This document shows positions 38,631-62,100 of a stretch of DNA of 64,000 nucleotides, piece after piece. The stretch spans positions 10,377,001 through 10,441,000 of the forward strand of contig CM076143.1 in assembly GCA_038025085.1 (NCBI GenBank). The letters run 5' to 3'. The translations under genes were made by a program, and so were the position numbers. The notes under the pieces are model-generated. The model saw only the letters and a list, made by a program, of their open reading frames with translations. It did not search any database and was not told the DNA's origin. Source of the DNA: Tetragonia tetragonoides. Lineage: Eukaryota > Streptophyta > Magnoliopsida > Caryophyllales > Aizoaceae. How positions within the stretch are numbered: the first letter of the stretch is position 1; each line of letters starts with the position of its first letter.

Positions 38631-39291
38631 GTTCCAAACCCAGTAAATATCCATGTCGAAGCTCATACAATCTCACCCCGTTTCATCTATAATGGAAAAT
38701 CCCATCAAGTTTCTTGCTTTGTGTAATTTCTTGGGGTATTTATATTTTCATGCACACCAACTGTTCGACGAAATGCCCCATCCACTTGATGTACTCTGTT
38801 TTGCCCAATTAACACTTTCACCTTCTTTTCTTTACTTTGCGAAGTTCAACCCATCCAAGAAAAAGAAAGAAAGAAAAGAAATAAGCTTTAGCTAACTGCT
38901 TCCAACAGAAATAACGACCCACTTCAAAAAGCTGTTATTTCCCTCATTCCCTCCCTTTTCTTTCCCTTAAAAGTAAACCAAGTTACCAAGCCTTTCTCTT
39001 TCTTCACTCACTCACTCACTCTCTTTCTTCTCCTCTAAATTTCTCTCTCTCACTGAAACTTAAAACATCCATGGCAGAACCTTCAAACAAAAACCAAGAA
39101 ACTACAAAAGAACACCCAGAAACTCCAGAAATTCGGCAAACTTGCGAGCTATGCAGCATAACGGCGACTCATTACATTCCCTCAGATGAAGTTTTTCTTT
39201 GCCCAGAATGCTTTGCTGTATCCATGTTAACGAATTCGCTTGTTCATGGAGAGATTAATCCTTCAACGGAGAACTCAGGAATTCTGTACAA
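38631..39291 (+). repeat. Recent segmental duplication, copy 2 (partner 18978-19638)
   Basis: This is the leader and first 221 coding bases of the intact B-box/clamp-like gene. It begins right after CTTTCTAGCCCAT and ends where the second B-box starts. The leader includes a short open frame (38653-38895) reading MSKLIQSHPVSSIMENPIKF and, later, HAHQLFDEMPH, which recalls a pentatricopeptide-repeat motif. Confidence 0.9.
38900..38990 (+). promoter_or_regulatory. Conserved upstream block of the clamp-like family
   Basis: The series CTGCTTCCAACAGAAATAAC, CCCACTTCAAAAAGC and TTATTTCCCTCATTCCCTCC lies about 80-170 bp before the ATG. Versions occur at about 8790, 19250, 19680, 45830 and 46985, in most cases before a family coding start or fragment. 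It contains a short inverted repeat (AAATAAC...GTTATTT; AACCG...CGGTT in the 46985 version). I infer a shared promoter or leader element. The bound factor is unknown. Confidence 0.5.
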
Positions 39292-42200
39292 TTGCAAAGT
39301 ATGCGGCCAAAAGGCGGCGTTGTACTGTCCCACAGATGACTCTTTGTTTTGCTTGAACTGCGATCATGGGGTTCATGAAGAGAGTCCTTTGACTCGTAGT
39401 CATACTCGCTACTTGATTTACCTAGAAACTTCAAATGCTTCATCATCATTGGGGGACACTTCAAAGAAGATTGACCCCAAAACTCCAAAACCCTCAAAAG
39501 ATACCCCAAGAACTTCAACCCAGAATGAAAAATTGTACAACATTAGCTTTCGAATTCGCCCTGCTAGTAAACTGAAGTCTCCTCTTCAAGCTTTAAGCTA
39601 TCTCAATTTTAAGGAACATGATTCTGGTATTTTCCAAGTGACAAAAAAAGGATTGATGATTAGTACTGGTCTGAGCAAAGAAGTGAAAATCTTGGGCAAT
39701 TTACAGTTAGAAGTTGGTGATTTCATCTGTTTCTGTTGCTACAATCCAATCAGGAGCCTTATTGACTTTACCCAATTTTCAAATCGAGTTTTGGCAGCAG
39801 CTGATGATGATGAAATCAATGTCTACCACGATGATGGGTCTGATGTAATCCAGCTCGTAATTGGTATCATCTCTACCTTTCCTTCTAAATTCTATGAGTT
39901 TTGCTATTTCTGGTTAGTTCTTTATTGTAATATTTTCTTGATAATGGCTGAAAATGATCAATTTCAACGTTTCAGAACTGATTTGGTCATTTTGTGTGAA
40001 TTCATTTTATAAAGTTTCATTACAGAATAATTTTCAACGTCTTGAATTTATTGCAGAAAGATGGAGTAGTACTTAATCCTCATTTTTAAGCATAAGTAGT
40101 ACTTGATATCTTTCATTACTAGGATGTTTTTCAGGCATCAAACTGTGTTGCATGAGATATATTAATCACCCATTTTCTTCTTCTTAAGTTCATTACTTGA
40201 ATCCCTTTCAGAATTCCATTGAATACCAAGTTTCTGTGACTATTTCAGGAACTTCTGATCGTACAAGGGTTAAAGTGCAATTACATGCCATAACTGGGTT
40301 TGGAAAAGATTACCGGGTTACCTGCTGGATATCGGCTTATATAGCTTCTGACAATTTGCGGCAGATCATTGAAGATATAGAAGCTAGTGCAGTAAATGCT
40401 GGTGCTTCCTTACTGTTCTCTTAATAATAATATATTTGCTGTCCCTGTTTACATACATACCCACTTTAAGTTACAGCTTAAATCAGTCAATATTATTGCA
40501 TTACTAACAAATGCCCTCTCTTTTTAATCTATGACTCAAGCTCAATTTGACCTACGAGTTGATGGTAAATTGTATATCAATGTCGAAGGAAACGTACGGA
40601 AGTATGAGTATGAATTTACGGTATAATATTTTTTCAAATTACAGTACTAAAAAGACATGATTTGCTACCACTGCCATGAAACTCCAAAAAAATGTTCAAT
40701 TTTATTTTAATGGTGTTTTGCAGGCTGCTCGTTTAAGGGCGAGTGACCCATCGGTGAAGTACCCTATAAAGATTGAGATGCCTATACCCCGATATCCTCA
40801 TTGTGTGTCTTTGAAAATGGCGTTATCTCTAGGAAAAGAGTTTCAATGGGGCCTTTATACATCACCACCCAACTGCATTGCGTTGCGCTGCCCCATCTCA
40901 GAACATGGGCGTCTGGAGTATGTCATTGGACCAAATCTGACCCTCCCTGAATTCAGAAGTTTGAAAGAGAGCGTAGAGTCTTCCAAACAGAACCTTGAAG
41001 ATTCAAAAGACACTACAATGGCCAAACCATCAATAGCTCCACTCCTTATAGAACAGAATTTTAATAAAAGCGTGCAACCTTTGAAGCAACAGCCTCAATC
41101 TTCAGAGCAAGATAGCACCTCTGGTACTGACAAGCAAAAGATTGAACCAGGAGAGCAAGTAAGCAGCTCGAGTACTGACCAACCAAATCTTGAACCAGGA
41201 GAGCAAGGAAGGAGCTCTACTTCGAAGGCCACCAAAGAACCTTCGAAAGACAAGCTTCAATCTTCAGAGCGAGACATCTTCTCTGGTATTGACGAGCAGA
41301 AGTTTGAACTAGGAGAGCGAGAAAGCAGCTCTGGTACTGACCAATCAAATATTGAACCAGGAGAGCAAGGAAGGAGCTCTAGTTCGATGGACACGAAGGA
41401 ACCATCGAAAGACAAGCCTCAATCTTCAGAGCGAGGCAGCACCTGTGGTACTGACAAGCAAAAGTTTGAACCAGGAGAGCGAGAAAGGAGCTCTGGTACT
41501 GACCAGTCAAATCTTGACCCAGGAGAGCAAGGAAGGAGCTCTAGTTGGAAGGACATCGCAGAATCTTCAAAAGACAAACCTCAAACTTCAGAGCGAGACA
41601 ACACATCTGGTACTGAAAAGCAAAAGTTTGAACCAGGAGAGCAAGAAAGCAGCTCAAGTACTGACCAAGTAAATCTTGAACTAGGAGTACAAGAAAGGAG
41701 CTCTAGTATTGACCAGTACAATAATGATCCAGGCATGGACAAAACCTTGATAGATAGCAAAGGACCTTCAACCCAGAACCCACTACCTTCAAAACAGACC
41801 CCTGAAACTTCAACAAATCCATCCATCTGCGAATTTTCAAATGATAAAGGTCCAGCCATAGATGAGCCTTCGGAAGAGAACCTAGAGACTCAGATACATA
41901 ACCCTGAAGCCTCGCAACATCCACAAATGGGCAAAGCTTCTGAAGATAACATAGAAACCAATGACAGAGATTTCACAATCGGGTCTGTGCTCTTAATCAA
42001 AACCACTCCAGGAGAAGTATTTGAAGCCCGCGTTATTACCTTTGACCGACCCAGAAACATGCTGGTGCTTCATATCCTTTCTCCCCCACTCCCCCTCTCT
42101 ACCCTTTTCCTTCCCAATTTTGGTGTTTGGTATATTCATTGCAGGTTAAGTTTTGAGCTCCTTAACTTATTTTATTGGTGAGCTTACAAAAGGGTCCAAG

Positions 42201-42321
42201 ATCAGGACCAAACAGGGATACAACAACTTTGAATGCCAAGCATATTGAAAAGTTCACCTTGTTGCACCAATCAGAAGACCCTCTCAAGAGCTGTAATCTC
42301 GAAGCTTTGTCCAAGACGTAA
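39071..42321 (+). CDS. B-box / PCNA-like clamp / LSM12-like fusion protein
   Basis: Proposed exons: 39071-39863, 40249-40401, 40541-40620, 40724 to about 42076, and about 42193-42321. The first three splice in phases 1, 1, 0 like the other family members. Residues 25-60 form a degenerate B-box. Residues 75-111 form a full plant B-box (C75, C78, C86, C94, C97, H102, H111). From about residue 155 comes PCNA-like domain 1, ending DDDEINVYHDDGSDVIQLVIG, next to the clamp's own DDGSD signature. Exons 2-4 supply the second domain and C-terminal part. A linker of three and a half exact 162-bp repeats (54 aa each, from 41101) follows. The end (IGSVLLIKTTPGE, then FDRPRNMLVLHI, next exon TTTLNAKHIEKFTLLHQSED) matches the LSm half of LSM12. 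About 835 aa. The last junction is uncertain: a stop and no clear donor near 42080. Role unknown, perhaps a nuclear scaffold. Confidence 0.72.
41101..41748 (+). repeat. 162-bp coding tandem repeat (linker)
   Basis: TTCAGAGC recurs at 41101, 41263, 41425 and 41587, exactly 162 bp apart, so the unit is 54 codons and the frame is kept. Each unit holds sub-units of about 20 residues with the pattern SSS(T/G)TDQ-NLEPGEQ. Low-complexity, Ser/Glu/Gln-rich and likely disordered. Confidence 0.92.
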
Positions 42322-42373
42322 TTTACTCTTTAATCTCTCTCTATTATGATTACTTATCTTTTTGGACATGTAA

Positions 42374-42683
42374 GATTTATGCATTCACCCTGCCAGTAAG
42401 CTGAAGGATGCAATTGAGGCTCTGAGGGATGCCAATTTCAATGAACACGGCAAGGGAATCCTTGAAGTGGGGCCTGAAGGATTGGATATTACAGCTGTAA
42501 ACATTGAAACCAACGTCATGGGGTGTGTTCATTTGATGGCTACTGGTTGGATCAACTTCAATTACAAGAAGATGGTTGATTTGAATCAGATTTCCCAGCA
42601 TCTTTCTGCTGCTTCTGAAGATGAATCAGTTACTATTCACCATGTTAATGGCTCTAATGAGCTCTCCTTGATGTTTGGTATCA

Positions 42684-42740
<57 letters not shown>

Positions 42741-45115
42741 GATATTGTTCTGCTTTGAATTGTTGTGGCACCTTTTATGTTTATTCCATCAACAATGATA
42801 TTTGGTCATTTTCTTGGTTCTATATTTGGTCCTTTTAAGCTGAATGAAATCTTCAAAATATTCAGAAACACAACTTTCCTGATTAGTTCTTCAAGATAAT
42901 GCTCGAAATATTTAATTGGATAATAATTACTGAAGGTTTTGTTGAGCATAGCATCATTTGATAATGAGGATAAACCAGAATCTACTCATCTTGGCACCAG
43001 AGCAAGGTTGTGCTGACATTTTAAGAATCATATCCTCCTCTATCTTAAACCGATTCTTAAATGCCCTATAAGTTGGAGGTCAATGATGTGTAATCAACTA
43101 TTGAACAGTTACGATCCACTGAAAGTATTTTCTGCTTCTTATAATTTCCTATAATACTGTCATAATGCTTGCTATTGCTAATTTAAATTTAAAAATTGTT
43201 TCTGGCCTGGAAAGGGTTGTAGTTCATCACACACCATGATGGTCGTCTTCTCCTCTGTTTCATGGATATTAGTTGTATCAATAATGTGGCTAGCACACTC
43301 AGTAATTTTTTTTTTTGAATTACTCAAAAGATCCCAGAATTTGGAGGTTTGGTTAATTTTGATGTTTTGAGATTCACTTCAGGAGAACGTCCAGACCAAA
43401 AGTTTCCTGTAAAGACACTTCAAATCAATGATGAATTCGAAACAATTCCCAAAATCGCCTATTCATTTGAGGTTACTATACCATCTGCACGTCTGAAAGA
43501 AATCATTCAAGAAGCTGAGGCCAATTCAAATAGCTATGGTGCTTATTTCACATTCTCTTTCAAAAGAAAAAAAAGGCTTTTGTGCTTTCACTCATATCAA
43601 TATTATTACTACTTTAACAATTTCCTTTCATTGCAATTGCATATCTCAGTTTCATTTTCCCTCACAAAAAGCAATGTCCAAGTCAATGCTGGCAAGCGAA
43701 CATGGAAGTGTAACTATTCCAAAAAGGTGCGTAAAAGTCTCTATTTTGGTGCCATTTGCTACCACCATTGATGGAATCTACAAAAAGTCTTACTTTTGTC
43801 TTCTTGAGGTTTTGCAGGATAATACGATTAAACTAACCAAGAAGTATCCTTTGAAGTTCCAATGGCGTCACTGTGACTCCCTAAAGAAGGCGACTCTGGT
43901 GGCAGAGAGGGCCCTTTTCTGCCTTAACAAAGATCAGTCCAAGTGCATGATGCTGCGATTCAACATCCAAAACCAGGGTCATCTGGTTTTTAACATGGGA
44001 ACAAACGTGGTCCTCCCCGTACTTGCACAATGGGAACAAGGGGGAAGCTCTTGTACCGAGGAACAAAGATCAGTCCAAGAGCAAAGAGGTAGCTCTAGCA
44101 CTGAGGATCCAGATTTGGGAGAAGGGGAGCAAAGAAGTAGCTCTGCTGTTGACCAACAAAATATGGGACAAGGGGAGCGAGAGGGCAGCTCAAGTATTGA
44201 TGAATTAAAGTTGGGAGAAGGCGAGCAAAGAAGAAGCGCTGATACTGGCCAACCAGATATGGGACCTGGAGAGCAACAAAGCAGCTCAAGTACTAAAGAA
44301 TTAGATTTGGGACAAGGCGAGCAAACAAACATCCCTGGTACTGACCAGCCTGTTATGAGACCAGGACAGCAAAGAAGCAGCTCCAGTACTGAAGAACCAA
44401 ATTCGGGACGAGGGGAGATAAGAAGCAGCTCCGATACTGACCAACCAAATATGGGATCTGCGGAGGTAAGAAACAGCTGTAGCTCTGAAAATTGTCAAAA
44501 GTGTTTGAAATGTGGAGAGTCAGGGCATGATCCCTTCTCATGCAATTACGACCACTCTCCTGATGTTCTCAATGTGAGTTTGACTGGCTAAGGCCAGCAT
44601 GCTCATGATATGATGTCTTTTCGTTCTCTGTGTTATATGGATTTCTTGGGTCTAAATCATAGTTGTTTTGACATACTTTTGTGGGCAAATAATCCTTTTC
44701 CTTGACAGAATTCCCAATATTGTGGTTGCAACGAACTTGGGCATCTCTTGTTACAACTGTGGGGAGTCTGCACGTTGAGGCTCAGTAACTTGTTCAGCCC
44801 AGCAACAGTATCTTGTCACAACTGTGGGGAGTTTCGACATTCAGGCTCGGTAAGTTGTTTAGCCTTGCACTAATAACTTCTTTCCATTTTTGGTACTATA
44901 ATTCAAAGCTTATCTTTTGCCTTTTCCTTGTAAATCTTCCTTAAAAGCAATGCCCGAAACCACACATGGATGAGTCGAGCTCAGGGCAAGAAAGTTACTC
45001 CGGTACTGACCAACCAAATTTGGGACCAGGACGGCAAGGAAGCAGCTCTAATGCTAATTTGGATAAATCTGAACCAAGAAAGCCAGAAAGCAGCTCCAGT
45101 GCTACCCAAGGGTAA
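42374..45115 (+). CDS. PCNA-like clamp protein with C-terminal CCHC zinc knuckles
   Basis: Exons 42374-42677, 43383-43538, 43650-43726, 43818-44573, 44709-44849 and 44948-45115 join in frame (533 codons). Domain 1 reads IHPASKLKDAIEALRDANFN and ends GSNELSLMFG. Exon 2 has LQINDEFETIPKIAYSFEVT, the connector and domain 2. Exon 4 has the C-terminal domain, then about eight 20-residue SSSTDQPNMGPGEQ-type repeats. After these come CLKCGESGHDPFSC (C-x2-C-x4-H-x4-C), a degenerate knuckle (CGCNELGH), and CHNCGEFRHSGS, whose last Cys comes from the next exon (QC), making a perfect knuckle across the intron. CCHC knuckles usually bind single-stranded nucleic acid. No start codon is visible: a stop lies just upstream (42371-42373). 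It may be a continuation of the preceding gene through splicing I cannot fix, or it has lost its first exon. Confidence 0.68.
42689..42736 (+). repeat. (TC)n microsatellite in intron
   Basis: A run of about 23 TC units lies directly after the splice donor of the exon ending at 42677. Similar CT-rich runs occur in the leaders of several family members (38575-38622, 47680-47693, 60170-60200). Confidence 0.9.
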
Positions 45116-45879: not shown

Positions 45880-46384
45880 ATGGAAGAAAACCAAGAACCT
45901 TCAAAACCATCAAAATTTGGATCCTGTTTCTCTACGTGTCAGCCATGGAAGAATACCAAGCCCAAATCTTCGAAACTGAAACATAGCCCTGAAACTTCAA
46001 AAGATCCTACCCAATTTTTGGATCCTGTTTCTCTGCGTTTCAACCCCAACTTGACGAAACATCCATGGCTGCACCCTCTTCAAAGAAACCATTTGAGACC
46101 AAACCTTTATTAAAAGCCATTTATAATGACTATAGCTTTCTCCTTCAACTGGGTCCCGCGAGTACGCTGAAAAACTCTATACAATCTCTTCAAGGACTTG
46201 AATTACAAGCCACCACACTAACTCCTTGTCCATGTTTTCAGGTCTAACAAGTGAAGTCCACTTCTCTTTGGACCCTAATGTGGACCTAATGCGGTGGTCT
46301 GAGCTCCCACAGCTAGGGTTGATGGGTTACATGATGGAAGGACAGCTTAGTGGTCTGATCTGGGACTTTAATGAAGAGCTCTGA
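45880..46384 (+). pseudogene. Truncated clamp-like gene (half of domain 1)
   Basis: The start ATGGAAGAAAACCAAGAACC (45880) matches other family members, but the frame is broken. A second in-family start at 46065 reads MAAPSSKKPFETKPLLKAI, then LLQLGPASTLKNSIQSLQG, which is domain 1 of the clamp-like protein. After a frame slip near 46240 the domain goes on as SGLTSEVHFSLDPNVD, then LGLMGYM and GLIWDFNEEL, and stops at 46382-46384. The rest of domain 1 and exons 2-4 are missing. A dead fragment between two larger copies. Confidence 0.7.
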
Positions 46385-47704: not shown

Positions 47705-47743
47705 AGGGAAGAAAATCAAGAACCTCCAAAGCAACCGGCCACC

Positions 47744-49878
47744 ATGTCTAAACCTCCAAAACATCCGGGCACCAGTTCTAAATCTCCGAAACATACCGCC
47801 AAACCCGAGCCTCCGAAACAAGCCCCCAAAGCATCCATGGCTGAACCCTCTTCAAAGAACCCATCAAAGACCAAACCTTTTGTAAAATTTGATGAAAACA
47901 TGAGCTTTATTCTTGAACTCGGTCCTGCGATTAAGCTGAAACACTCTTTATTTGCCCTTGGCGATCATGGATTCAACTTACCAGGTACAGCAATGATTGA
48001 AGTGGAGCCTAAAGTTGTTGAGATTACAGCTCGAAATACTGAAAACAAAGTGTTTTACCAATACAAAGCCTTGGGATATCTTCGGTTGACTGCTTCGGGT
48101 TTCGTGAGATTCGAGTTTCGAAAGCCCTTGAGGAGGATGAAGATCCTATTGAACAAAGTTTATGACAATCTGGATATGGCTTCTGATGAGGATACTGTCA
48201 CCATTTGGCATATCGACCATTCTGATGAGCTCTCCTTTCAGTTTGGTATAATCTCTTACTCAAATTTTATCATAGTATACTTTGCTGTTTTCTTCTGAGT
48301 TTTAGCTGCTTCTTTTGATTTAATTGTTTTCTTGAACATGAACTTTTGAGAAACAGATGTTCCTTGTATGTTTTCTTGGTAGATAGATTCAATGTTGCAT
48401 CTTGACAGTGTTATGTTAAAGAGATAACCCTGCTGTTGTCATTCTGCTGTTTGTTCAGATTTCTTGACTAATTTGCTCATTACACATTTTGAGGGTTAAA
48501 GCCTCTATTACCATTTCGCATGTCCACGAGTCTAATCAGCTGTCGTTCAAATTTGATATGGTCTCTAATCCAAGTTTTAAGACGATACAGGAATGGGATA
48601 GGACGATGGTGAAGCTTGTGATCGAGTATTTGGTGTTCTTTGTAATCTTCTTCTCCTTGAAGATTGATATTTAATAAAATGAGAGCGATACGAGAATGTA
48701 TAATTGTGTTCATATCTGTTCTTATGTTCTATGTTTAGGAGCTTTTTTAGATTTTGTTCACTTTCTTGAGCCTCAAATTAACAGAGTTGCCCTGTTCATT
48801 TTATTGGAAGAAAGTTTTGATGCTGCATATACTGCATTGTGACAGCTTAATTTGTACACCATTATATTTATTTCAGCCAAAAAAATTGTTGTTTCTGTTA
48901 TTAGTTGCCCTCAAAAGTTCAATAGGCATCTGTTACCCTTGTTCTTGAAAATCATGAACAAACCCAGCTTTTCAGGAAGGGCATATCACATCTGTTGCCC
49001 TTGTTCTTGAAATCATGAAGAAACCCAACTTCGAAGTTCAAGGGTTAAATGATGTTGAATTTTCCTGACTTATTTCAGGAAGTATACCTGTGATAAATTT
49101 TGGCGTACAATTACACGAAATTGATGCTGAGTTTCGAAAGGTTCCGGACATGACCCATGCGTGTGAATGTATTCTACCGATTCCGCATCTGCAAAAGTTC
49201 CTTACACTAGCAGGACAAACCACAAATAAATTTGGTACTTATTTCTCCTCCTTGTAAAATCTGCTCTTTTTCATTGATCACTTGAAAACCCAATTTATAT
49301 TTCAGCTTTTACTGTTCAATTCCACTGCATGTTTAACAAATTCCTGTCTTGTTAACTGTTTGTATTTCTCAGTTTCCTTTGAAGTATCAGACAACAGTGT
49401 GTGTTTGCTTGTGGGACAGAATAAAGTGGAGTATATCTATGATACAAAGGTATATTAAATAAACCTCAATTTTTTTATTATTATTTTTTTTTACTTCTTA
49501 GATATTAGGTGCTAATAATATGCATGAAAATCTAAGGGACTTTTGCAAATTTCAAAAAAATTTCTCTTGCAGAAAGGTGTAGTCCGGGGGATGGAACGTG
49601 GCCTGAAGCATCGTGCATATTTCCGCTGGCCTTACTTAGAGGCTTTGAGGAAGGCCTCCAGTTTGGCGAAAGGGGTTGTGATATGCCTTGTTACCGAACC
49701 AAAGGACAGCATCATGTGGCGGTTCAACCTCAGAGAACTTGGGGATCTGGTGTTTATCCAGGAACTGGATCTATTACTGCCTAATTCTCAGCTTCGTGAC
49801 GATTTTATTGACCCATTTAGTAACTTCAAAGTGCTTGTGCCGCTTGACAAACTCCCTTCTACAGAGACTACCATCTGA
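47744..49878 (+). CDS. PCNA-like clamp protein (346 aa)
   Basis: Exons 47744-48245, 49079-49234, 49373-49449 and 49573-49878 have GT-AG borders and phases 1, 1, 0. The usual family start MEENQEP is lost, ATG having become AGG at 47705, so translation must begin 13 codons later at MSKPPKHPG or at M32 (MAEPSSKNP), which is conserved in the family. Residues about 52-168 are clamp domain 1, ending ASDEDTVTIWHIDHSDELSF. Exon 2 carries the connector QLHEIDAEFRKVPDMT. Exon 4 holds LEALRKASSLAKGVVICLVT, then WRFNLRELGDLVF, in the place of the clamp's last beta strands. It ends in the family tail FKVLVPLDKLPSTE. If it folds like PCNA it would be a ring subunit around DNA. That is inference: sequence identity is low. 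The position aligned with PCNA K164 is not clearly a lysine. Confidence 0.75.
48489..48580 (+). pseudogene. Relic duplicate of the exon 1 end inside intron 1
   Basis: ASITISHVHESNQLSFKFDM repeats the end of exon 1 (TVTIWHIDHSDELSFQFG) about 250 bp downstream of it, within the intron. A shorter relic is at about 60975-61010 in the 60216 gene. No clean splice acceptor stands before it. Confidence 0.6.
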
Positions 49879-50526
49879 AAAAATATGTTAGGATGGATTT
49901 TAGTCATAGGATGTTAAACGATTGCGTTGTTTTTAGTAGTTTGTGTATATAGCTGCTGCGATATGTTTGTTTGCTTGTTTGCATACTATCTGTCAGTGCA
50001 AGCGCAACACAGCATATTCAACGTATGTTAGATACTTGGATCATTTCGTCATTAATCAACATGGTGATTAGAAGTAATATACTTTGGTCTGTGTAAAATT
50101 TTAGCGAGTTCTTGAATTGCTGCGACATACCCTACTGTTTGTTAGCTAACCTGATCATACTGTCTTATGGTAGAATGTTACACCCCACCGTGCAGTTAGT
50201 TTGTGCGAGTGCATATATGTTCTTGTCTTACATATATCAGAAGTGTATCATGAAAAAAACATTACTACCATATAGTTTGGTTCCCTTCTTTGTATATGAT
50301 CAGTTGATCACCTGATAGCTAAAACACTTTCTTTTCATGTTATAAGTATCTTACAGAAAAGTTCAGGTATTTAGACTAGATAATAAAGATGACATTAACT
50401 CTATTAGCACTAAACACCAGATCACTTCCTATTTTTATTCTCTCCTCTGGCTAACACCCCCACCGCCTATTTGCTTTCTCTCTCTCTCTCTAGCTGTAGC
50501 TGCTCCGTCATCGGTGGGCTAAACCC
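49879..50526. other. Intergenic: 3' flank shared with other copies
   Basis: Sequence at 49900-50400 recurs, diverged, at 34680-34870, 62100-62400 and especially 63660-64000 (CCGTGCAGTTAGTT..., CAGTTGATC...). No gene. Confidence 0.6.
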
Positions 50527-50766
50527 ATGTTCCAAACCCAGTCGATATCCATGGCGAAGCTCATACAATCTCACCCTCTTTCATCTATAATGGAAAATCC
50601 CATCAAGTTTCTTGCTTTGTGTGATCTTCATACAGTTCGTAATTCTAACACTAATAGTAACAAGGGTTTGGGACATCTTCATCTGAAAGCTAAAGTTTTT
50701 ATTAAATTCGACTTTCGAAAACCCTTGAAGAGGAAGATGATCAACTTGGTACATATTTCTGAGTAG
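50527..50766 (+). pseudogene. Chimeric fragment: B-box gene leader joined to clamp domain 1
   Basis: The frame starts in the same leader as the B-box gene (MAKLIQSHPLSSIMENPIKF) and passes straight into NKGLGHLHLKAKVF and FDFRKPLKRKMINLVHISE, the middle of clamp domain 1. It stops at 50764-50766. No B-box, no start of domain 1 and no later exons. It shows that leader and body have been recombined between family members. Confidence 0.7.
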
Positions 50767-51263
50767 TTAAGGAATTACAGTATGTAAGTATATAGTGGTT
50801 AAGGAAGTCAAGGTCTCATACCAAGAAATGGGATCATTCAGTTCGGTAAATCTATCCTAATTATCTTTTAATCTTATCTAAAACAAAAGTGGAAGAATTA
50901 AACTTGTATGTAATTACTGTAAGATGTAGGACTCTCTTCCCTTCCCTGTCTATCTCAAACTCTCTGCCCTCAATCCATGGAAGAAAATCAACAACTTTCT
51001 CTCTCCTTGCTCTCTCTTTCCATTTCTTCCACCGTTTCTGAGCCTTCGAAACAAAGCCCCAAAGCATCCATGGCTGAACCTACAAACAACAACACATCAA
51101 AGATCAAGCCTTTCAAAGATGATAAAAACAATAGCTTTAGCTTCCAACTGAGTGCCGCGAGTAAGCTGAAACACTCTTTATTAGCTCTAAGCGATGTCGA
51201 ATTCAACGAACAAGGTATAGCCATGATAGAAGTTGAGAGCAAACTTGTCGAGATTACAGTTCG

Positions 51264-54200
51264 TGTTAATATATGGCTCATATTCACCACTATTATTTAT
51301 CTATTCCTCAAATAGAAAAGCAAAAGTTTGAAAGGGGATAATTGCTTCTTACAAAATAAACACACAGCTTATTGGTTAGAATAGATTTACTAAAATAAGT
51401 TTTGTACTTTGTTTAGCAAATGAAAACATTATATAAGTCACGATTTGTAGAGAGATAATTAAATCTATTATTTGTTAAAAGTGTTGTTTCATCTGAGTGG
51501 GTTTATAATTTTCTTTGAATTGTTGTCTTTAGAAAATCGTTTTTCGTAAGTGTCGTCAGTCAGGGAGTGAATTTCCTAACAAGTGGTATCAGAGCTCCAG
51601 GTGCAAGGGCATTATCAAGTTTCAATTTTTTTTTGAAATTCCACAAGACAGAATGTCGACCAGCACGGCGAAGTACGATATTGAGCCATTTGATGGTAAA
51701 TCCAATTTTAGCATTTGGCAAAGTACCGTGAAGGACATATTGGTTCAGCAAGGACTTCTAAAGGCATTGAAAGGAAAAGAGAATAAACCAGACACTATGA
51801 AGGATGATGAATGGGAAGAGTTAGAGGCGAAGGCCGTGTCCTGTATCAGGTTAAGTTTGGCACCGCAAATCAAATATCAAGTTTTAACGGAAACGTCTGC
51901 CAAAGATCTGTGGGAGAAATTGGAAAATGTTTATATGTCCAAGTCTCTTTCAAACAGATTGTATTTGAAGAAGGATCTGTATCAGCTAAGAATGCGGGAA
52001 GGTTCAGATCTCAATGATCACATAAATGAGTTCTGTCGGCTGACTACTCAATTATTGAACATTGACGTCAAACTTGAAGAAGAAGACAAGGCCTTATTGT
52101 TACTCTCCTCTCTTCCAGAGTCATTCTCAACACTTCAAACGACTCTACTCGTTGGGAAGAGCACGTTATCAGTTGATGACGTAACGTCAGCGCTGTTGGA
52201 CGCAGATAGATTCAGAAGTACGAATTCCAACAGTCAAGGTGAAGGTTACGTAGCCAGGTCAGCTGGACGTGGCAGGAGTCAATCTCGAGAAAAGAGTTCA
52301 AGACGAGGTAGAGCACGGTCAAAGTCTCACATTAGGAATCGAGACAAGTCACAGATTGAATGTTTCCGTTGTCATGAGAAGGGACATTACAAGAACCAAT
52401 GTCCAAACTTCAGGAAAGACACGGGTGAAACAAAAAGTGACAGGAGACCAGGAAATTATGCTCATGTCGCACATGTCAGCGACAATAATGAAGCAGAATT
52501 ATATGTTGCAGCTGCTAGAGAGGATTCAGGAAATTTACTTTCAGTTCGAGATGACACATCTGGGAGAGATTGGTTCATTGATTCCGGGTGCACGTTTCAC
52601 ATGTGCCCAAACAGGGATTGGTTCGAGACATTAACACCATGTAGTACTGGAACCGTGTTAATGGGCAATGATGCTGCTTGCAAGGTTGCAGGAGTCGGAA
52701 CAATCAGAATTAAAATGTTTGATGGTATGGTGAGAACATTGGGGAATGTTAGGTATATTCCAGATCTAAGGAAAAACCTGATATCCATGGGTACGCTTGA
52801 TTCATCAGGTTGTACAGCCTCGATCAGAGGTGGAATCATGAACATCTGCAAAGGCTCAATGATAATCATGAAGGGCCAGAAGATGGGTAACCTTTACAGG
52901 TTAATAGGGACTACAATTGAAGGTGGAGCAGCGGTCTCTACTTCAGAAGAAGCCAAGAATGATGACACAGACTTGTGGCATAAACGGCTAGGCCACCTTA
53001 GTGAAGTAGGCATGAGAGAACTGTACAAGAGGGGGTTGCTACAAGGTGTGAAAACATGTAAGTTAGAATTCTGCAAGTTTTGCTTGTATGGAAAGCAGAG
53101 GCGAGTTAGCTTCAAAGTAGGAGTTCATACAAGCAAAGGTGTCCTTGATTATGTTCATTCAGACGTGTGGGGTCCACTTACGGATGTCTCCATTGGAGGA
53201 GCGTAGTATTTTATCAGTTTCATAGACGACTATTCCAGGAAGGTATGAGTATATTTTATGAAACACAAGTCAGAGGTTTTCAATATTTTTAGACAGTGGA
53301 AAGCCAGGGTTGAAAACCAGACGGGAAAGAAATTGAAATACTTTAGGTCAGACAATGGAACGGAGTTCAAGAAAACTAGGTTCTTAGAGCTTTGTAAAGA
53401 TGAGGGTATCATCAGACATTTCTCCGTTAAAAGAACTCCACAGCAAAACGGAGTAGCTGAAAGGATGAATAGGACATTGCTAGAGCGAGCCAGATGCATG
53501 AGATTAAATGCAGGCTTGCCAAAGAAGTTTTGGGCTGAAGCAGTTAATACAGCCTGTTATCTAATCAACCGCTCACCATCAGCTGGGATAGATCACAAGA
53601 TTCCAGAAGAAGTGTGGTCAGGGAAGCCAGTAGACTTTTCAGTTTTGAAAGTATTCGGTTGCCCAGCTTACGTTCATATACAAAGTCCAGAGAGATCCAA
53701 GCTTGATCCTAATTCAAAGGAATGCATATTCCTTGGTTATGAAGACGGGGTTAAGGGTTATAGGTTATGGGATCCAGTGAGTAGGAAGAAAGTAGTGAGT
53801 AGAAATGTTGTTATCAACGAGAAACAAATGTTGAATAAACAGATAAACGAAGAAGAAATAGTTAGTGAAAAGCCAAAACTAACTATTGTGGTAGATAGCC
53901 GCAACTCTGAAGTTCAAGAGGAACTAGGAGCAGAGTCGCAGGAGAAGGAACTAGAGGATGAACTAGTTTCAAATGAAGTTATAGAGGAACAACCCATAGT
54001 GCAACCAGGAGATACATACATGCTTGCAAGAGATAGAGTCAGACGCACCATCAAGCCAGTACAAAGGTTAGGCTTTGAAGATACGGTAGCTTTTGCGTTA
54101 ATGACGGGCAATGGAGAACCAGACACTTACAGAGAAGCAATCAGTTCGGATGACAGTGGTAAGTGGGTGACTGCCATGACAGAGGAGATGGAATCTCTCC

Positions 54201-56088
54201 AGAAGAACCAGACTTGGGAATTAGTTAAACTTCCTAAGGGTTCTAAAGCAATAGGTTGCAAGTAGGTGTACAGGAAGAAGGAAGCGCTCTCGGAGACAGA
54301 GGGTGAGAAGTATAAGGCCCGGCTAGTGGCGAAAGGATTCTCTCAAAAGGAGGGAATAGACTATAATGAAATTTTTTCCCCAGTAGTGAAACACACTTCT
54401 ATTAGACTACTTCTATCTATTGTAGCATCACAGGATATGGAGTTGGAACAACTGGATGTGAAGACAGCCTTCCTCCATGGTGATTTAGAAGAAGTAATCT
54501 ATATGCAACAACCAGAAGGCTTCAAGGAATCAGGAAAAGAAGACTTAGTATGCAGATTGCAAAAGTCTTTATATGGTTTGAAGAAATCACCTCGTCAGTG
54601 GTATAAGCGTTTCGATGTATTCATGACAACACACGGTTACTCCAGGTGCGAGTATGATCCTTGTGTTTACTTTCGAAATCTTGAGGACGATTCTCTATTG
54701 TTGTTAACTCTCTATGTGGATGATATGTTGATTGCCTCTAGAATCTAGAGAGCATTATCCACTTGAAGACATTATTAAGCAGAGAGTTTGACATGAAAGA
54801 TCTTGGAGCTGCCAAGAAGATCTTAGGTATGGAGATCCAGAGGGATCGAAGAATTGGAAAATTATGGTTGACACAGAGAGGATATGTTCAGAAAGTGCTG
54901 GAAAGGTTTAGTATGCAAAAAGCAAAACCTGTAAGTTCACCACTTGGTGCGCATTTTCAGTTATCTTCACAGTCTTGTCCGAGTACAGAGGATGAGGTGG
55001 AGTATATGTCTCGTGTCCCATATGCAAATGCTGTTGGTTGCCTCATGTATGCCATGATATGCACAAGACCAGATATCTCACATGCAGTCAGTGTGGTAAG
55101 CAGGTATATGGCGAATCCAGGAAAGGATCATTGGAATGCAGTTAAATGGATTTTTCGCTACCTAGCAGGTACCACAGATTACGGGATCATGTTTAATCGT
55201 AATGGAGCAAGAAGTGAGGTCATAGGATTTGTTGATTTAAATTATGCAGGAGACTTAGACTCCAGGAGATCCACGACAAGGTTCGTGTTTTGTTTTAATG
55301 GAGGACCCATTTGTTGGAGGTCAGTACTACAGTCTACTGCAGCGTTATCAACGACTGAGGCGGAATACATGGCGATAACAGAAGCATGTAAGGAGGCATT
55401 ATGGTTAAAAGGTTTGGTTAAGGAACTTGGTTTCAAGCAGGATAGTGTTCAGATACAGTGTGATAGTCAAAGTGCTATGAATTTAGCAAAGAATCAAATA
55501 TTTCATGCCAGAACCAAACATATCGATGTTCGATATCACAGAATTCGAGAATGGGTAAGCTCGGGCGATATAAGCTTACAGAAGGTTCACACTAAGGATA
55601 ATGCCGCAGATATGCTAACCAAGCCCGTACCAATAGAGAAGTTCAAACGTTGTTTGAAGATGATACATTTTACCTCGTTATGATTTCAGGTAGAGTACCT
55701 TCGTCAAGGTTGATTATTAATAAAGTCAAGGTTGAAGAAATCATCGTAGAATATGATCCAAGGTGGAGATTGTTAATATATGGCTCATATTCACCACTAT
55801 TATTTATCTATTCCTCAAATAGAAAAGCAAAAGTTTGAAAGGGGATAATTGCTTCTTACAAAATAAACACACAGCTTATTGGTTAGAATAGATTTACTAA
55901 AATAAGTTTTGTACTTTGTTTAGCAAATGAAAACATTATATAAGTTACGATTTGTAGAGAGATAATTAAATCTATCATTTGTTAAAAGTGTTGTTTCATC
56001 TGAGTGGGTTTATAATTTTCTTTGAATTGTTGTCTTTAGAAAATCGTTTTTCGTAAGTGTCGTCAGTCAGGGAGTGAATTTCCTAACA
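51264..56088 (+). mobile_element. Full-length Ty1/copia retrotransposon
   Basis: LTRs 51264-51581 and 55771-56088 are both 318 bp (TGTTAATATA...CCTAACA) and differ at two positions by my reading. GTTCG flanks the element (51259-51263 and 56089-56093). The primer-binding site TGGTATCAGAGC is at 51584-51595 and a purine-rich tract lies just before the 3' LTR. Near-identical LTRs mean a recent insertion. It sits in a coding exon in the same direction as the host gene. Confidence 0.95.
51653..55683 (+). pseudogene. Copia gag-pol polyprotein with nonsense codons
   Basis: The frame starts MSTSTAKYDIEPFDGKSNF and carries gag, a CCHC knuckle (CFRCHEKGHYKNQC), protease (WFIDSGCTFHMC), integrase (LWHKRLGHL, then DVWGPL and DNGTEF), reverse transcriptase (LYVDDMLIAS) and RNase H (TEAEYMA, CDSQSAM). 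It is broken by stops at 53204-53206, about 53246-53248 and 54263-54265, and a frameshift near 54745. Two of the stops sit where copia proteins usually have Trp (KV-W-VYF, K-W-VYRKK), i.e. TGG to TGA/TAG. Any recent movement must have used proteins from another copy, or the stops arose after insertion. Confidence 0.93.
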
Positions 56089-57793
56089 GTTCGAAACAAT
56101 ACTAAAAAACAAGGCCTTGGGATATCTTCGGTTGAATGCTGAAGGTTTAACTAAATTCGAGTTTCGAAAGCCCTTGAAGAGGAAGATGATCAACTTGCGT
56201 CACATTTCTCAGTATCTGGAGATGGCTTCTAAATCTTCTGATGAGGATACTGTCACAATTTGGCATGTTCATGAGTTTAATAAGCTCTCCTTTGAGTATG
56301 GTATTGCTCTAATCTGTTAGAATTTTTAGAAGCAAGAAATTATTGATAGAATACTCTGTGTTGCTTACTTTTTTCGTGTCATACAAATTTTTAGTAAAAT
56401 GATGATAAAATGATTCTTTGTGTTGCTTACTTTTTTCATGTCATCTTTGATAGATCTAGGCTTGTGTCTAGGTAATTATTATTATTATTATTTTTTTTTT
56501 GGTTTCGGTAACAGGATTTTGAACATCACTTCCAACATAATCCGAACTTTGATGACTAGTATGTATAGTTTTAGCCAGATTTGTTCTTGACTTTCGAGTC
56601 TTAGCTGCTGCTTTTGATTTGATCACTTTCTTCAACTCAATCTTGAGAACAGAGTTGCCCTGTTTGTTTTAGAAAGATTCAATGTTGCATAGTGACAGCT
56701 CTATTTGTACACCAACATAGTACTTGGACAAATATTTAGTGTCTCTTAACTACAATACATTATGTAACAAAGGCGATGTGAGTCAGACCACAGGCTTCTT
56801 CCTAGGCGGGCCATCATCAACCGAGTAGAAGGAGCTCTTCATGAGGGAGTTTCAGACCTCCTGATTTTAGTTAGTTTCCTGTTTGCTTTAAGTTTTCGAG
56901 GAAACTAACAGATACGAGTGAATCAAAAGTTTATCACCCTTTGTGGCCTAAAGTTTGAAAGATATTGACTTTTCCTGACTTAGTTCAGGAACCAGAAGCA
57001 AACATGTGATAGAGTTTGGTGTAGAATTACATGAAATTGATGCTGCGTTTGAAAAAGTTCCCGACATTACCTATGCGTGTGAATGTGTTATACTCACAGA
57101 AGATTTGTGGAAGTTCCTGGAACGAGTAGAAGCCACTACAGCGAAATTTGGTACACATGTTTTTCCTCCTCAAAAACAAATTTGCTCACTTTCAACAGTT
57201 GTGAATTATCTCTAGGTGCAGGTTTAAATAGTCAATTATTCCACTACCTGTTTAACAAATGCTTATCTTGTTTACTGTATATATGTCTCAGCTTCCCTTG
57301 AAGTATCAGACAGTTCCATGACTGTGTTTGTGGGAAAGACAGAAATGAAGTACAAATATGACACAAGGGTATATTAAACAAACATCAATTTTCTTTCTAC
57401 TAGAATACTAGTGCTAATATGCTATGCATGACAAACAAGGAAATTTACAGTTTCAAACAATTTCTCTTGCAGAAAGGTGGAGTTAGGGGGTTGGAACCTG
57501 GCCAGAGGCATCGTGCATTGTTCCAGTGGCCTTACTGTGATACTTTAAAAAAGGCCTCCATCTTGGCGAAAGGGGTTCTTTTATGCCTTGTTACGGACCC
57601 AAAGGAGAGCATCATGTGGCGGTTCAACCTCCGAGAACTTGGGGATCTGGTGTTTATCAAGGCACTAAATGTGTTCGTCCCAAATTTTCGACCTGGAATG
57701 CATGAAGGCAACTCTGGTACTAATGATAAGAAGCCACCAAAGAAGTTTGAAATCCTTGTGCCGCTAGACAAAGAACCTTCCAAAACTATCTGA

Positions 57794-58483
57794 AAATATC
57801 TCAGCATGTATATTAAATGTTTGTGTTGTCAACAAGAACCAATGTTGAACCACCTACGCCAGTTTGTCTACCTGACCTTAGTTTCACCCAAGTGCCAGTT
57901 TTAAACATTTGAGTTTGACAATGAATGTAATGAGCTTGAGCTAACCATAGTGTGAACGGATATTATGGTAGTCTGCTCCTTTACGCCATGATCCTTCATC
58001 CTTCTGTATGAAAATTTTACCAAGTTTGGTCCCATAGGAACATAAGCGTTCAAGTTCATGACAGAAATTTTATCCCATGATGCATAGCTAGAGATAGCGA
58101 CAAACTGATATTTTGGCAGATTGCTCCTTCAAATCATTGATCCTTCTTTATGAGCAAATTTGGTCCTTCTTTATGAGCAAATTTGGTCCAATATGAACAT
58201 AAGCCTTCTTGACTGAAAGATTATCATGTGTTTAGTCCTCTCCAAATAAGAAAATATCAGGTGTCCTGTTATGCCCAGCTGTGACAGATGAAATCTGACA
58301 AGGTATTCTCATTTTCTCATGGTTCAAAGTCCACACTACATATTTTCACAAATACACTTTGCAGACAATAAGCTATGTTTCAATAAGGCACATGACAAAC
58401 AGATAAGATGTTTACATAATCGTAGTTTGTTCTGTGTATGACGGGACTAAGTACGATGTTCAAGTAAAGGAATTTGCAGATTA
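57794..58483. other. Intergenic
   Basis: 3' flank of the clamp-like pseudogene, with a short internal duplication (TCCTTCTTTATGAGCAAATT occurs twice near 58140-58175). No gene seen. Confidence 0.6.
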
Positions 58484-58502
58484 ATCAAGATCCATACTGG
58501 TT

Positions 58503-59533
58503 TGTTTTTTTTTTTTGATAAATCAGCGTTCTCATTAAAATGAAAAGGATCATTACAAGAATGCAAGATGCTACTCACGGTATCAAGAGACATCATACCC
58601 CCACCTTCTAGGAAGGGTTTGGTATAAAGTGAAAATCATCTACCAAGAAATAGCCAAGAAAAACAAAACAACAGTACACAGAAAAGAAATTACAGCCATG
58701 TTACAAAATTTTCTCCTCTAGTGAGACCTTGTTTAGCCAACCCATCTGCTATCGCATGTACACTCCTAGGACGATGTTGAACTGAAAATTTTGGCCACCT
58801 CACCAAAGTACTCCTAATAATATTGAGGTCAAATCTTGCATTCCACGGACCTCCCTTTCGCACATTACACCAATTGACCGCATTAAGAGAATCCGATTCA
58901 AAGACTATATCAAAATTTGACAACCATTCCTTCGATATCGTTTCCATAAGAGCCCTCCCAATAGCACTGATTTCGGCATGATTTATCTCAAGACACCTCA
59001 CACGAGCTGAAAACACGCATCTAAACTTGCCCTCCCAGTCGCGCAAAACACCCCCCACCGCTGCTACCCCATCCTTGAAGGAGGCGTCAGTATTCCTCTT
59101 CAAACACCTTTTTTTGGAGCTTCCCAATCGATCACAGGTTTACGTCTTGGTGCAGGACAATATATTCTCAAGCAACTTGGTGTTAAACTGACCTGTTGTG
59201 GAGAGTATGGAAAGCCTTCATCCCAAGCTTTGATCCACCATCCTAGCCTCAACAAAACAAGAGCAAAAACCTCTGCACCATCACAACGTTTCCCCTTAAA
59301 AATTCTAGTGTTCCTTTCCTTCCAAATCGACCATGCCATCACATAAAGAAAGGTCATATGCACCTTTTTAAAGTGAGGGCTTGCTGTCAATGAACCCCAT
59401 TGCTCATAGAAATCCATCATTCCCCAAGGTACACACCATACCATATCCCATAGAGTAAGCCAATGGTTCCATATACCTCTCGTAAACGAACAGTGAATCA
59501 GCAAATGAAAACACGACTCATCATCACTCCCAC
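58503..59533 (-). mobile_element. 5'-truncated LINE insertion
   Basis: A 19-bp duplication, ATCAAGATCCATACTGGTT, flanks it (58484-58502 and 59534-59552). A poly-T run at 58506-58519 is the poly(A) tail of a minus-strand LINE. Only the 3' kilobase was inserted, which is usual for target-primed reverse transcription. Confidence 0.92.
58690..59504 (-). pseudogene. LINE ORF2 end: zf-RVT and RNase H domains
   Basis: On the minus strand 59504-59100 encodes the zf-RVT-like part (LIHCSFTRGIWNHW, then MAWSIWKERNTRIFKG), and 59127-58690 encodes an RNase H domain. Its catalytic residues are visible: Asp in KRNTDASFKDGVAAVGG, Glu in NHAEISAIGRAL, Asp in FESDSLNAV and in HAIADGLAKQG. The two frames are offset by a slip in a homopolymer near 59112. 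Reverse transcriptase is not included. Confidence 0.88.
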
Positions 59534-59721
59534 ATCAAGATCCATACTGGTTACTACCTTAAAATTCGTTACTGTATTCAGCAAACAGTTTATGATGTGC
59601 CAAGTAATGTTTCTATTTCCTGGTGCAACAAATAGTAGTACAGAAAAATGGCCCAACCAATATTTTTTGCTAAGACAACTAATTTAACTCATTAGTTCAG
59701 AACACTACATTAAGTTGTCTA

Positions 59722-59904
59722 GGCTTGAACGCTTCTGGTTCAATCGACTTCGATTTTCACAAGCCTATTGAGAAGAAAATGATGATCAATTTTGAAGAAA
59801 CTGATCATTCACCCAGAAGACAAGGAAGCAATTCACATGTTACTAATCCAGATAATGAACCTGCTATAATCAGTAACAAACAATTCAGCTCTTGTTCTCC
59901 CTAA
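59722..59904 (+). pseudogene. Fragment of clamp-like domain 1 with linker
   Basis: A short open frame, GLNASGSIDFDFHKPIEKKM and then MINFEETDHSPRRQGSNS, matches the middle of domain 1 (LNASGFIRFEFRKP in the next gene), and then changes to linker-like sequence resembling the Ser-rich repeats. It stops at 59902-59904. No start or further exons. Confidence 0.65.
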
Positions 59905-60080
59905 GCTTAAAAGATAAGCTTATCTTTTAAACTCAGGTAAATATGTAACAAACAATTCTAGTTTTTAACTACAAGAGTAAATGCTAACTAAAGTAACTGC
60001 AGATAAACAAGGGAAATTTAAACAAAAACAAAAATGAGAAAACAAAAATGCTGTAACTAACTCCCCTCTTTCTGCCACTG

Positions 60081-60167
60081 ATCATAACGGTCTCAAATAT
60101 GATAGGTAAAACTCATCTTCCCTCCCTTTCATCCTCACCAACTTCAAAACCAATATTTCCACTTTAA

Positions 60168-60204
<37 letters not shown>
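60081..60204 (+). promoter_or_regulatory. Leader of the intact clamp-like gene: AACGG motif and (TC)n tract
   Basis: AACGG at 60086-60090 lies about 130 bp before the ATG, as in the leader of the 47.7-kb gene. It is the core of the plant MSA/MYB3R element for mitotic expression. A (TC)n run of about 15 units (60170-60200) follows. CT-rich leaders are common in plant core promoters. The functional reading is inference. Confidence 0.4.
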
Positions 60205-60215
60205 GCCTTTCAGCC

Positions 60216-62100
60216 ATGGAAGAAAATCAAGAACCTCCAAAACAACCATCCACCATTTCTGAACCTCCAAAACATCCGGCCACCAGTTCTAAACCCCCGA
60301 AACATCCCGCCAATCCCGAGCCTTCGAAACAAACCGCCAAAGCATCCATGGCTGAACCCTCTTCAAAGAACCCATCAAAGATCAAACCTTTAATAAAATT
60401 TGACAAAAACATGAGCTTTATTCTTGAACTTGGTCCTGCGATTAAGCTGAAACACAGCTTATCTTCTCTAACCGATCAAGAATTCAACTCACTTGGTACA
60501 GCAATGATCGAAGTGGAGCATGACGTTGTTGAGATTACAGCTCGAAATACTGAAACCAAAACCTTGGGATATCTTCGGTTGAATGCTTCGGGTTTTATTC
60601 GATTCGAGTTTCGAAAGCCCTTAAGGAGGACGAAGATCAACTTGGTTAACATTTTTCAGGAATTGGAAATGGCTTCTGATGCGGATACTGTCACCATTTA
60701 TCATATTGACTATTCTGATGAGCTCTCCTTTCGATTTGGTATTATCATCTCTTATTCAAAATTTAATTACAAATTTTTTTTTTCTTCTGAGTTTTTGCTG
60801 CTTCATTCTTTTGATTTGATCGCTTTCCTGAACATGAATGATAAAGAAACAAATTTGCCCTCGTTTCAGTTTGGTGTCAGTTTTGCTGTTTCTTTGGATT
60901 TCTTGAGACATTTCCATCACATTTGTATCGCGATAAATTTACTCGTTAAAGACATTTGAGGCCTAATTTCACATGTCGACGAGTCTAATCAGCTGTTGTT
61001 CAAGTTCTGTATGTTCTGCAAAGGTCTTTTCTGTGTTTAGCAGCTTCTTTTGATTTTGATCACTTTCTTGGAAGACAGATTCAATGCTGTATACTTCATA
61101 GTACACAAATAGACATACTGAATTTCATGAACACACCCAAGTGTAAGGGTTGGATGCAGGGGCGGATCAAGGATTTTACAACTGGGTATGCACAAATCAC
61201 AATTAGAAAATCGACCTGGGTATGCACTTGCATAGGTATTGTTCAATGTGGATCCGCCACTGGTTGGATGATGATGAATTTTCCCGACTTATTTCAGGAC
61301 GCAAACCTGTGATAAACTTTGGCGAAGAATTACATGAAATTGAGGCTGAGTTTGAAAAGGTTCCAGATGTTACCTACGCGTGTGATTTTGTTCTAGGCAA
61401 TCCACCTCTGAGGCACATCCTTAAAAATGTAGAAACCACTACAAATAAAATTGGTACTTAATTCTGCTCCTGAAAATCTACTCTTTTTCCTCACTAGAAA
61501 AGTATTTCTGCACTGCAGCTTTTACTATCAAATTTCATTTGCCTGTTTAACAAATTCTTACCTTGTTAGCTGTATATATTTCAGTTTTCTTTGATTTATC
61601 ATACAACAAGGTGACTTTTGTTGTGGCACTGAAGTTAATGCCAAATGAATATGACACAAAGGTATGTTAAACAAAAGCTCAATTTTGTTGCTACGAAGAT
61701 ATTAGGTGCTATTATGATGTGACTGTGCATGAACAAATAATTAAGGAAATTTTGCAATTTCAAACAATTTCTCTTGCAGAAAGGTGGAGTTAGGGGGATG
61801 AAACCTGGCCAGAGGCATCGTGTATGGTTCCAGTGGCCTTACTGTGAGGCTTTGATGAAGGCCTCCTACGTAGCAGAAGGGGTTCTTTTATGCCTTGTTA
61901 CGGACCCAAAGAACAGCATCATGTGGCGGTTCAACCTCCGAGAACTTGGGGATCTGGTGTTTATCAAGGCATTAACTAAGTTTGAACCTAATTATCAACC
62001 TGGAATGCCTGAAGGCAAATCTCATACTGATGATAATAACCCAGCAAAGAAGTTTGAAATCCTTGTTCCACTTGACAAAGTCCCTTCTACAGCTACCTGA
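60216..62100 (+). CDS. Intact PCNA-like clamp protein (358 aa)
   Basis: Exons 60216-60738, 61298-61453, 61585-61661 and 61780-62100 keep one open frame with GT-AG borders and phases 1, 1, 0. A Pro/Lys-rich N-terminal tail (about residues 1-58; PPKHPATSSKPPKHPANPE) precedes clamp domain 1: FILELGPAIKLKHSLSSL, then LGYLRLNASGFIRFEFRKPL and DADTVTIYHIDYSDELSF. Exon 2 begins domain 2 with the connector ELHEIEAEFEKVPDVTY, the surface that in true PCNA docks PIP-box partners. Exon 4 gives CEALMKASYVAEGVLLCLVT, then WRFNLRELGDLVF, and the family tail KKFEILVPLDKVPS. Canonical PCNA is about 263 aa, so this has extra N- and C-terminal tails. It is the best candidate for a working member. Ring formation and DNA binding are inferred. 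Confidence 0.82.
61157..61262. mobile_element. hAT-type MITE in intron 1 (106 bp)
   Basis: Its ends CAGGGGCGGATC and the complement of CAGTGGCGGATCC are flanked by the 8-bp duplication GTTGGATG (61149-61156 and 61263-61270). It lies about 30 bp upstream of the exon 2 acceptor of the intact clamp-like gene and leaves the acceptor untouched. Confidence 0.88.

Follow-up and report, generated by a model that had tools for sequence, protein, structure and literature searches.

A Multiplied Family of Divergent Clamp Genes, Probably Derived from Plant PCNA, in Tetragonia tetragonoides

Introduction

PCNA, a highly conserved protein of eukaryotes, is the ring that normally holds DNA polymerase on DNA, and some DNA viruses use the PCNA of their host. 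The 9-1-1 clamp (RAD9-HUS1-RAD1) is built of eukaryotic clamp paralogs that have diverged and taken on specialised tasks; its genes are ancient and conserved. The subject of this study is a stretch of 64,000 nucleotides of the Tetragonia tetragonoides genome (C5:10377001-10441000, contig CM076143.1; hereafter the window), in which an earlier note, made from the letters alone, had described a tandem cluster of divergent PCNA-like genes at 39071-62100. According to PMC4550699, plant PCNAs share more than 85% identity among themselves, and Arabidopsis, maize and carrot have two genes each; PMC6728418 gives a single PCNA gene for rice and pea. The genes described here belong to a family of dozens of loci that retains the intron plan of PCNA and has mostly replaced the pocket that binds its clients. 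The earlier note was aware of nothing similar among the described plant families, and none was found in the open-licence literature searched.

Results and Discussion

Clamp Gene Copies of the Window

All clamp-like pieces of the window are on the + strand. Five copies with the splice plan 1-1-0 lie at 39-62 kb and a broken one at 28.6-34.7 kb; the earlier count of at least five copies, one further copy upstream and several fragments was thus borne out, the upstream copy being in pieces. Four copies, g39071, g42383, g47744 and g60216, have open clamp frames, GT-AG splice sites and intron phases 1, 1, 0. Splicing of g60216 (exons 60216-60738, 61298-61453, 61585-61661 and 61780-62100, + strand), as proposed in that note, yielded an open protein of 358 aa. 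Gene g47744 (47744-49878, + strand; exons 47744-48245, 49079-49234, 49373-49449 and 49573-49878) encodes 346 aa; it has AGG at 47705, where a sister copy has ATG, and an ATG further downstream was used instead. The copy nearest to canonical PCNA is g42383 (42383-44591, + strand; exons 42383, or 42375, to 42677, 43383-43538, 43650-43726 and 43818-44591), whose tail is rich in repeats and whose clamp frame is without a start codon of its own. A B-box, a clamp and a long repeat linker are combined in g39071 (39071-42181, + strand; exons 39071-39863, 40249-40401, 40541-40620 and 40724-42181).

The DDGSD motif that had been placed before the first intron was present in g39071, and the remaining window copies have DYSDE, DHSDE, NGSNE or EFNKL at this site. 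Likewise, L-x-E-I-[DE]-A-E-F-x-x-V-P-D, reported after that intron with D at the fifth position, was found in g60216 and g47744, and with one change in the pseudogene g50977.

Intron Plan and Canonical PCNA Genes

The shared intron plan is the strongest single result. Four canonical PCNA loci, all above the Pfam cut-off, are present in this genome, with first exons 83-87% identical to Arabidopsis PCNA2. Their introns follow ESP plus one nucleotide, GDT plus one nucleotide, and the lysine of VDK or TEK; the resulting phases 1, 1, 0 were read from the junctions at all four loci and computed for one. On alignment with the canonical genes of this genome, the introns fell at columns 130, 181 and 217 in the canonical and 127, 182 and 210 in the divergent genes, with phases 1, 1, 0 in 5/5 copies compared; gaps in the alignment adjoin these differences of 1-7 columns. 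The identical phases pointed out earlier fit g60216, g42383, g47744 and g39071, and reflect the ancestral PCNA plan. As three introns match in both phase and place, the divergent family arose from plant PCNA by gene duplication at the DNA level. An origin from retrotransposed PCNA was ruled out, since all three introns are retained.

Two of the canonical loci, L001 (C4) and L002 (C3), have identical exon-1 DNA across 106 codons, which suggests a recent duplication.

Sequence Searches and Predicted Fold

The protein of g42383, searched alone against PDB sequences, matched Schizosaccharomyces pombe PCNA at 3e-8 over residues 5-224 of 245, covering both domains, and a chain with three PCNA copies at 1e-10; PCNA accounted for all of the best 60 of 74 matches. 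All 31 matches of g60216 were PCNA (best, 0.0028), and g39071 alone gave 11 weak matches, nine of them PCNA (best, 0.14). A profile of six family sequences found PCNA in all of the best 60 of 88 matches, with 3.3e-12 for a single-copy chain, and a ten-sequence profile gave 30 matches at 1e-10 or better, PCNA throughout. In the Pfam scan, PCNA_N scored 14.2 bits in g60216, 16.9 in g39071, 14.1 in g42383 and 12.8 in g47744 (cut-off 20.3), and PCNA_C 16.0 bits in g42383 (cut-off 23.0); among four dispersed members PCNA_N was found below the cut-off in two (18.1 and 13.5) and in neither of the other two. The quinoa protein P0002 gave a Pfam Rad1 match with an E value of 0.12.

When 5.8 billion proteins were searched with a profile, the matches were two quinoa proteins, the only close relatives detected, and the unnamed protein P0003 (4.3e-6), which is labelled PCNA_N, PCNA_C and Rad1 and seems to be archaeal. 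The combined B-box and clamp query found zero homologs at E ≤ 1 among 3049 candidates. In a structure comparison (VIA-align) of the predicted domain 1, the best 50 matches listed were clamp entries, 8xla_A being titled just Mismatch Repair Complex, and a 9-1-1 clamp entry was tied among the matches listed. A single-sequence AlphaFold model of a quinoa protein had a predicted local distance difference test score (pLDDT) of 31.5.

Sequence, the fold predicted for domain 1 and the shared intron plan all support homology of the family to PCNA, and on these grounds the PCNA-like identity proposed in the earlier note is upheld. Chance similarity was ruled out by the PDB match of g42383 (3e-8) together with the intron agreement with canonical PCNA.

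Extent of the Cluster and Distribution in the Genome

The flanks of the window were examined as well, 20 kb on the upstream and 200 kb on the downstream side. The cluster occupies about 90 kb on one strand, with clamp pieces at C5:10396418-10486645, about 46 kb beyond the end of the window; the previously given limits were therefore correctly placed but too narrow. The flank adds an open copy with phases 1, 1, 0, h74601 (from C5:10451601), and further broken copies.

The genome (752.8 Mb in 27 contigs) was searched with g60216, and at least 116 exon-level matches were obtained: 52 to domain 1, 52 to the last exon and 12 to the middle exons. The 52 domain-1 matches include fragments, some being halves of one exon; 37 of them, and 32 of the 52 last-exon matches, are free of stops. 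Near-complete domain-1 exons number at least 44, of which 31 are stop-free and 40 lie outside the cluster, against four canonical PCNA loci. They are spread over C5, C12, C10, C8, C11, C16, C6, C7 and C3.

Ten dispersed loci were retrieved, almost all of them selected among stop-free matches; eight gave open four-exon models, and a full gene model was missing at the other two (L032 and L038). The second exon measures 141-159 nt and the third 68-110 nt (77 in 5/8) in these eight models, in which phases 1, 1, 0 were imposed; most window copies have 156 and 77 nt. In control runs the procedure recovered the hand-made second and third exons of four copies and placed the first donor of canonical PCNA 9 bases off. 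It also added residues at two junctions of L029, and the third exons that it gave for L037 and L030 are low-scoring. The clamp matches at C5:16.07 and 16.11 Mb are in opposite orientations and score the same or almost the same, a pattern that an inverted duplication would give.

Conserved and Lost Residues

Identity to AtPCNA2 is 17-24% for the four window copies and 15-17% for the quinoa proteins. Seven divergent sequences were surveyed, their positions being numbered against canonical PCNA of this genome. The pocket for the PCNA-interacting protein (PIP) box, which we take to consist of residues 40, 44, 45, 47, 126, 128, 129, 133, 234, 250, 252 and 253 in human PCNA numbering, has mostly been lost: M40, H44, V45, L126 and Y250 are altered in 7/7, I128, P234, A252 and P253 are each retained in one, Y133 in three and L47 in four. 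The alignment of g39071 near residues 40-44 moves between two alignments, with the same outcome. Proline 129 of the interdomain connector loop (IDCL) is retained in 6/7, and K164 in one. Of the inner-surface lysines, K13 is retained in 7/7 and K217 in 6/7. An altered choice of partners, which the earlier note had considered possible, would be consistent with these pocket changes. The block RFNLRELGDLVFI is identical in g60216, g47744, h74601 and both quinoa proteins, and this exact sharing suggests constraint there.

Selection and Clades

One clade of the family is under purifying selection, and the cluster is evolving much faster. Over the clamp, pairwise comparison of g60216, g47744 and h74601 gave ratios of nonsynonymous to synonymous substitution rates (dN/dS) of 0.77 (interval 0.54-1.10), 0.97 (0.72-1.45) and 0.92 (0.60-1.55). 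Taken exon by exon, the ratios varied widely, up to 2.6 in exon 3 (25 codons). Among the six pairs of canonical first exons, four had ratios of 0.057-0.063 at dS of 1.7-1.9, near saturation, one was identical, and the pair L003-L004 had 0.28 over a stretch extending upstream of the start. The fast-evolving expansion proposed earlier is thus supported by the cluster ratios of 0.77-0.97 against about 0.06 for most canonical pairs, and the family proved to be genome-wide.

The wider set, of which 30/66 pairs are listed, excluded pairs below 45% identity. Within the quinoa-like clade dN/dS was 0.50 (0.32-0.88) for L034-L035, 0.55 (0.37-0.86) for L035-L036 and 0.72 (0.34-1.70) for L034-L036; between this clade and other copies it was 0.36-0.47 in the seven pairs listed, with all intervals below 1 and dS of 0.9-1.3. 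Pairs of cluster-type copies gave 0.67-1.12, several with intervals below 1, e.g., L029-L031 with 0.68 (0.52-0.92).

Between g60216 and g47744, two introns have diverged by about 0.25 per site (corrected). Neutral evolution was simulated with 0.20-0.30 changes per site; 5-8 stops were expected and the probability of none was 0.0002-0.006, values which ignore that open copies had been chosen. In the phylogenetic tree the quinoa proteins grouped with L034-L036 (92/93, below the program's own mark) and the eight cluster-type copies grouped together (99/99). This grouping suggests at least two clades that predate the split from quinoa.

Additional Domains in the Cluster

A zf-B_box domain is present in g39071 (about 39290-39406), with 28.5 bits for the N-terminal 129 aa alone (cut-off 24.1) and 23.0, just under the cut-off, for the full open reading frame (ORF) of 827 aa. 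Comparison with g39071 and visual inspection pointed to two further B-box stretches in the extended cluster. The last exon of g39071 runs in frame into an LSM12-like LSM domain (41969-42318, + strand), of which one part extends to 42071 and the next exon starts at 42188, with an uncertain end at about 42292-42318. The two parts are separated by a U12-type AT-AC intron (42072-42187; ATATCCTTT, TCCTTAAC, AC); when it is used, the last exon of g39071 ends at 42071 instead of 42181. The U12-spliced piece scored 43.1 bits for LSM12, against 29.3 for the unspliced ORF (cut-off 29.5). Identical placement of the U12 intron was found at the LSM12 loci C10:41475327 and C8:3827964 (L040 and L041), which were taken as parents; since the intron is shared with them, the capture looks like a DNA-level event.

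A second instance of this capture is at C12:6909279, where 5.57 kb of sequence are 97.3% identical. The linker of the C12 copy contains a single stop, and its two clamps have open frames across the compared exons; against the window copy, dN/dS was 0.33 for clamp 2 (9 differences) and 0.91 for clamp 1 plus the B-box (36 differences). A nine-exon model spanning 39071-44591 is open throughout, and a single double-clamp protein is possible on the basis of the sequence; the claim goes no further because the donor of the fifth exon was hand-picked to fit the frame and the C12 linker contains a stop. A CCHC pattern (CLKCGESGHDPFSC) was seen by eye in the tail of g42383, its Pfam score being far under the cut-off.

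Broken Copies, Mobile Elements and Other Genes

The clamp pseudogene g50977 (50977-57793, + strand) retains open exons 2-4 (56989-57150, 57292-57368 and 57473-57793). Its first exon is interrupted by a Copia element (51264-56088), and the two halves are open in different frames. The insertion is recent, with long terminal repeats identical at 316/318 positions and a 5-bp target duplication, GTTCG. The broken copy at 28615-34688 (+ strand) is in pieces and bears several insertions; it also holds a direct repeat (30597-31125 and 33089-33624, 93.8% identical), perhaps element ends. Fragments of clamp exon 1 were detected by sequence match at 46047-46220 and 50632-50757, and a weak one (E 0.005) at 59698-59790, all on the + strand. 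The first 74 codons of g39071 recur at 19418-19639 (+ strand) within a 661-bp duplication (18978-19638 and 38631-39291, 99.85% identical), which holds the 5' end of the B-box gene and is either a very recent copy or an assembly effect.

Other features of the window are a second Copia-type pol ORF of 581 aa at 5462-7207, an RNase H-like reverse-transcriptase fragment (RVT_3) at 58690-59127 on the - strand, and an open F-box/FBA_3 gene of 408 aa at 35803-37029, part of which (35835-36086) has an 81% copy at 38180-38411.

Interpretation and Alternatives

The reading we prefer, with a probability of about 0.7, is that of a PCNA-derived clamp family which descended by DNA-level duplication, multiplied, had its PIP pocket mostly replaced and now supplies specialised or competing clamps. 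A plant PCNA gene was duplicated at the DNA level and then spread to dozens of loci. The proteins would fold as two-domain clamps and might form assemblies, either of one kind, of several family members, or including canonical PCNA. They would no longer recruit the usual PIP-box clients, their outer surface may bind other partners, and they could act as specialised or competing clamps. The turnover, the high dN/dS of the cluster and the added B-box and LSM12 modules would fit changing selection better than replication itself. Conflict with mobile DNA or viruses, or a germline role, are candidate functions; a role in conflict, for example against DNA viruses, is a guess from the turnover.

Several observations weigh against this reading. 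No protein scanned reached the curated Pfam cut-offs of PF00705 and PF02747 (best, 18.1 of 20.3 and 16.0 of 23.0), four of the nine family proteins scanned (P0001, P0002, L036 and L037) had no Pfam PCNA match, and a PDB sequence search with P0002 alone found nothing. The AlphaFold model of a family member was weak, with a mean pLDDT of 49.8, values under 50 over most of residues 190-271, and a global root-mean-square deviation from PCNA of 13.6-16 Å. Stops are present in 15/52 domain-1 matches and many copies are broken, and the dN/dS of the window cluster is indistinguishable from 1. Finally, the inner-surface residues K77 and K80 are gone in 7/7, which weakens a DNA-encircling role; the retained K13 and K217 speak for it.

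This last loss, together with retention of the clamp sequence without its PIP pocket, would suit monomeric or hetero-assembling inhibitors, which would not work as clamps but cap the rings of canonical PCNA, poison them or tie up loaders. Such competitors would presumably look like this, yet the retention of K13 in all seven sequences and of K217 in six argues against it, and we regard this alternative as doubtful, though it deserves to be kept in mind. The family could also be mostly dead, consisting of PCNA copies that decay after amplification and have no protein function, the open ones being recent survivors. Broken copies are indeed common, the intervals for the three open simple cluster copies span 1, and the C12 copy has its linker stop and a ratio of 0.91 in clamp 1; but open four-exon models were found at most of the dispersed loci retrieved (with picks that favoured stop-free matches), a purifying signal exists within the L034-L036 clade and between clades, some cluster-type intervals, such as that of L029-L031, lie below 1, the quinoa proteins group with L034-L036, and a frame seldom stays open in the neutral simulation. 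Wholesale decay is considered unlikely.

An origin from a subunit of the 9-1-1 checkpoint clamp (RAD1, HUS1 or RAD9) instead of PCNA is highly improbable, as the intron plan is that of PCNA and the matches listed in four PDB sequence searches were all PCNA. A bolder extension of the PCNA-derived family, which we hold to be quite unlikely, is that of a lineage-specific set of dozens of interchangeable clamp subunits, some fused to B-box and LSM12 modules, that would form mixed rings or PCNA caps in a rapidly evolving system for defending the genome or controlling the germline, the clamp having become an arms-race protein.

Comparison with Known Systems

We file these genes as a PCNA-derived family and not as PCNA because they stay below the Pfam cut-offs, lack most of the pocket and do not show the conservation of PCNA. 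The sub-cut-off Pfam scores and the deposition of the quinoa members as uncharacterised suggest why such genes have remained unnamed. PCNA-derived genes in dozens that keep the plan and have mostly dropped the client pocket would show a clamp freed from replication and remodelled, and the role of a clamp without a PIP pocket is now directly testable.

Closest among described genes are those of plant PCNA (PCNA1/PCNA2), with which the family shares similarity over both domains, the IDCL proline (6/7) and three introns with phases 1, 1, 0. It differs in its identity of 15-24% to AtPCNA2, in the loss of most of the PIP pocket and, in 6/7, of K164, and in its dN/dS of 0.77-0.97 in the cluster against about 0.06 for most canonical pairs. 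It also comprises dozens of copies, compared with the one or two given in PMC6728418. The 9-1-1 clamp resembles it in the structural match of domain 1, whereas the present family is multiplying and has the introns of PCNA. From LSM12 the cluster has the LSM domain and its U12 AT-AC intron, here seen as its N-terminal part and placed behind a B-box/clamp exon; with B-box zinc finger proteins it shares zf-B_box, which in g39071 is followed by a clamp. The Chenopodium quinoa genes LOC110708464 and LOC110737058, deposited as uncharacterised and with no Pfam B-box match, are members of the same family, 38-41% identical to g60216.

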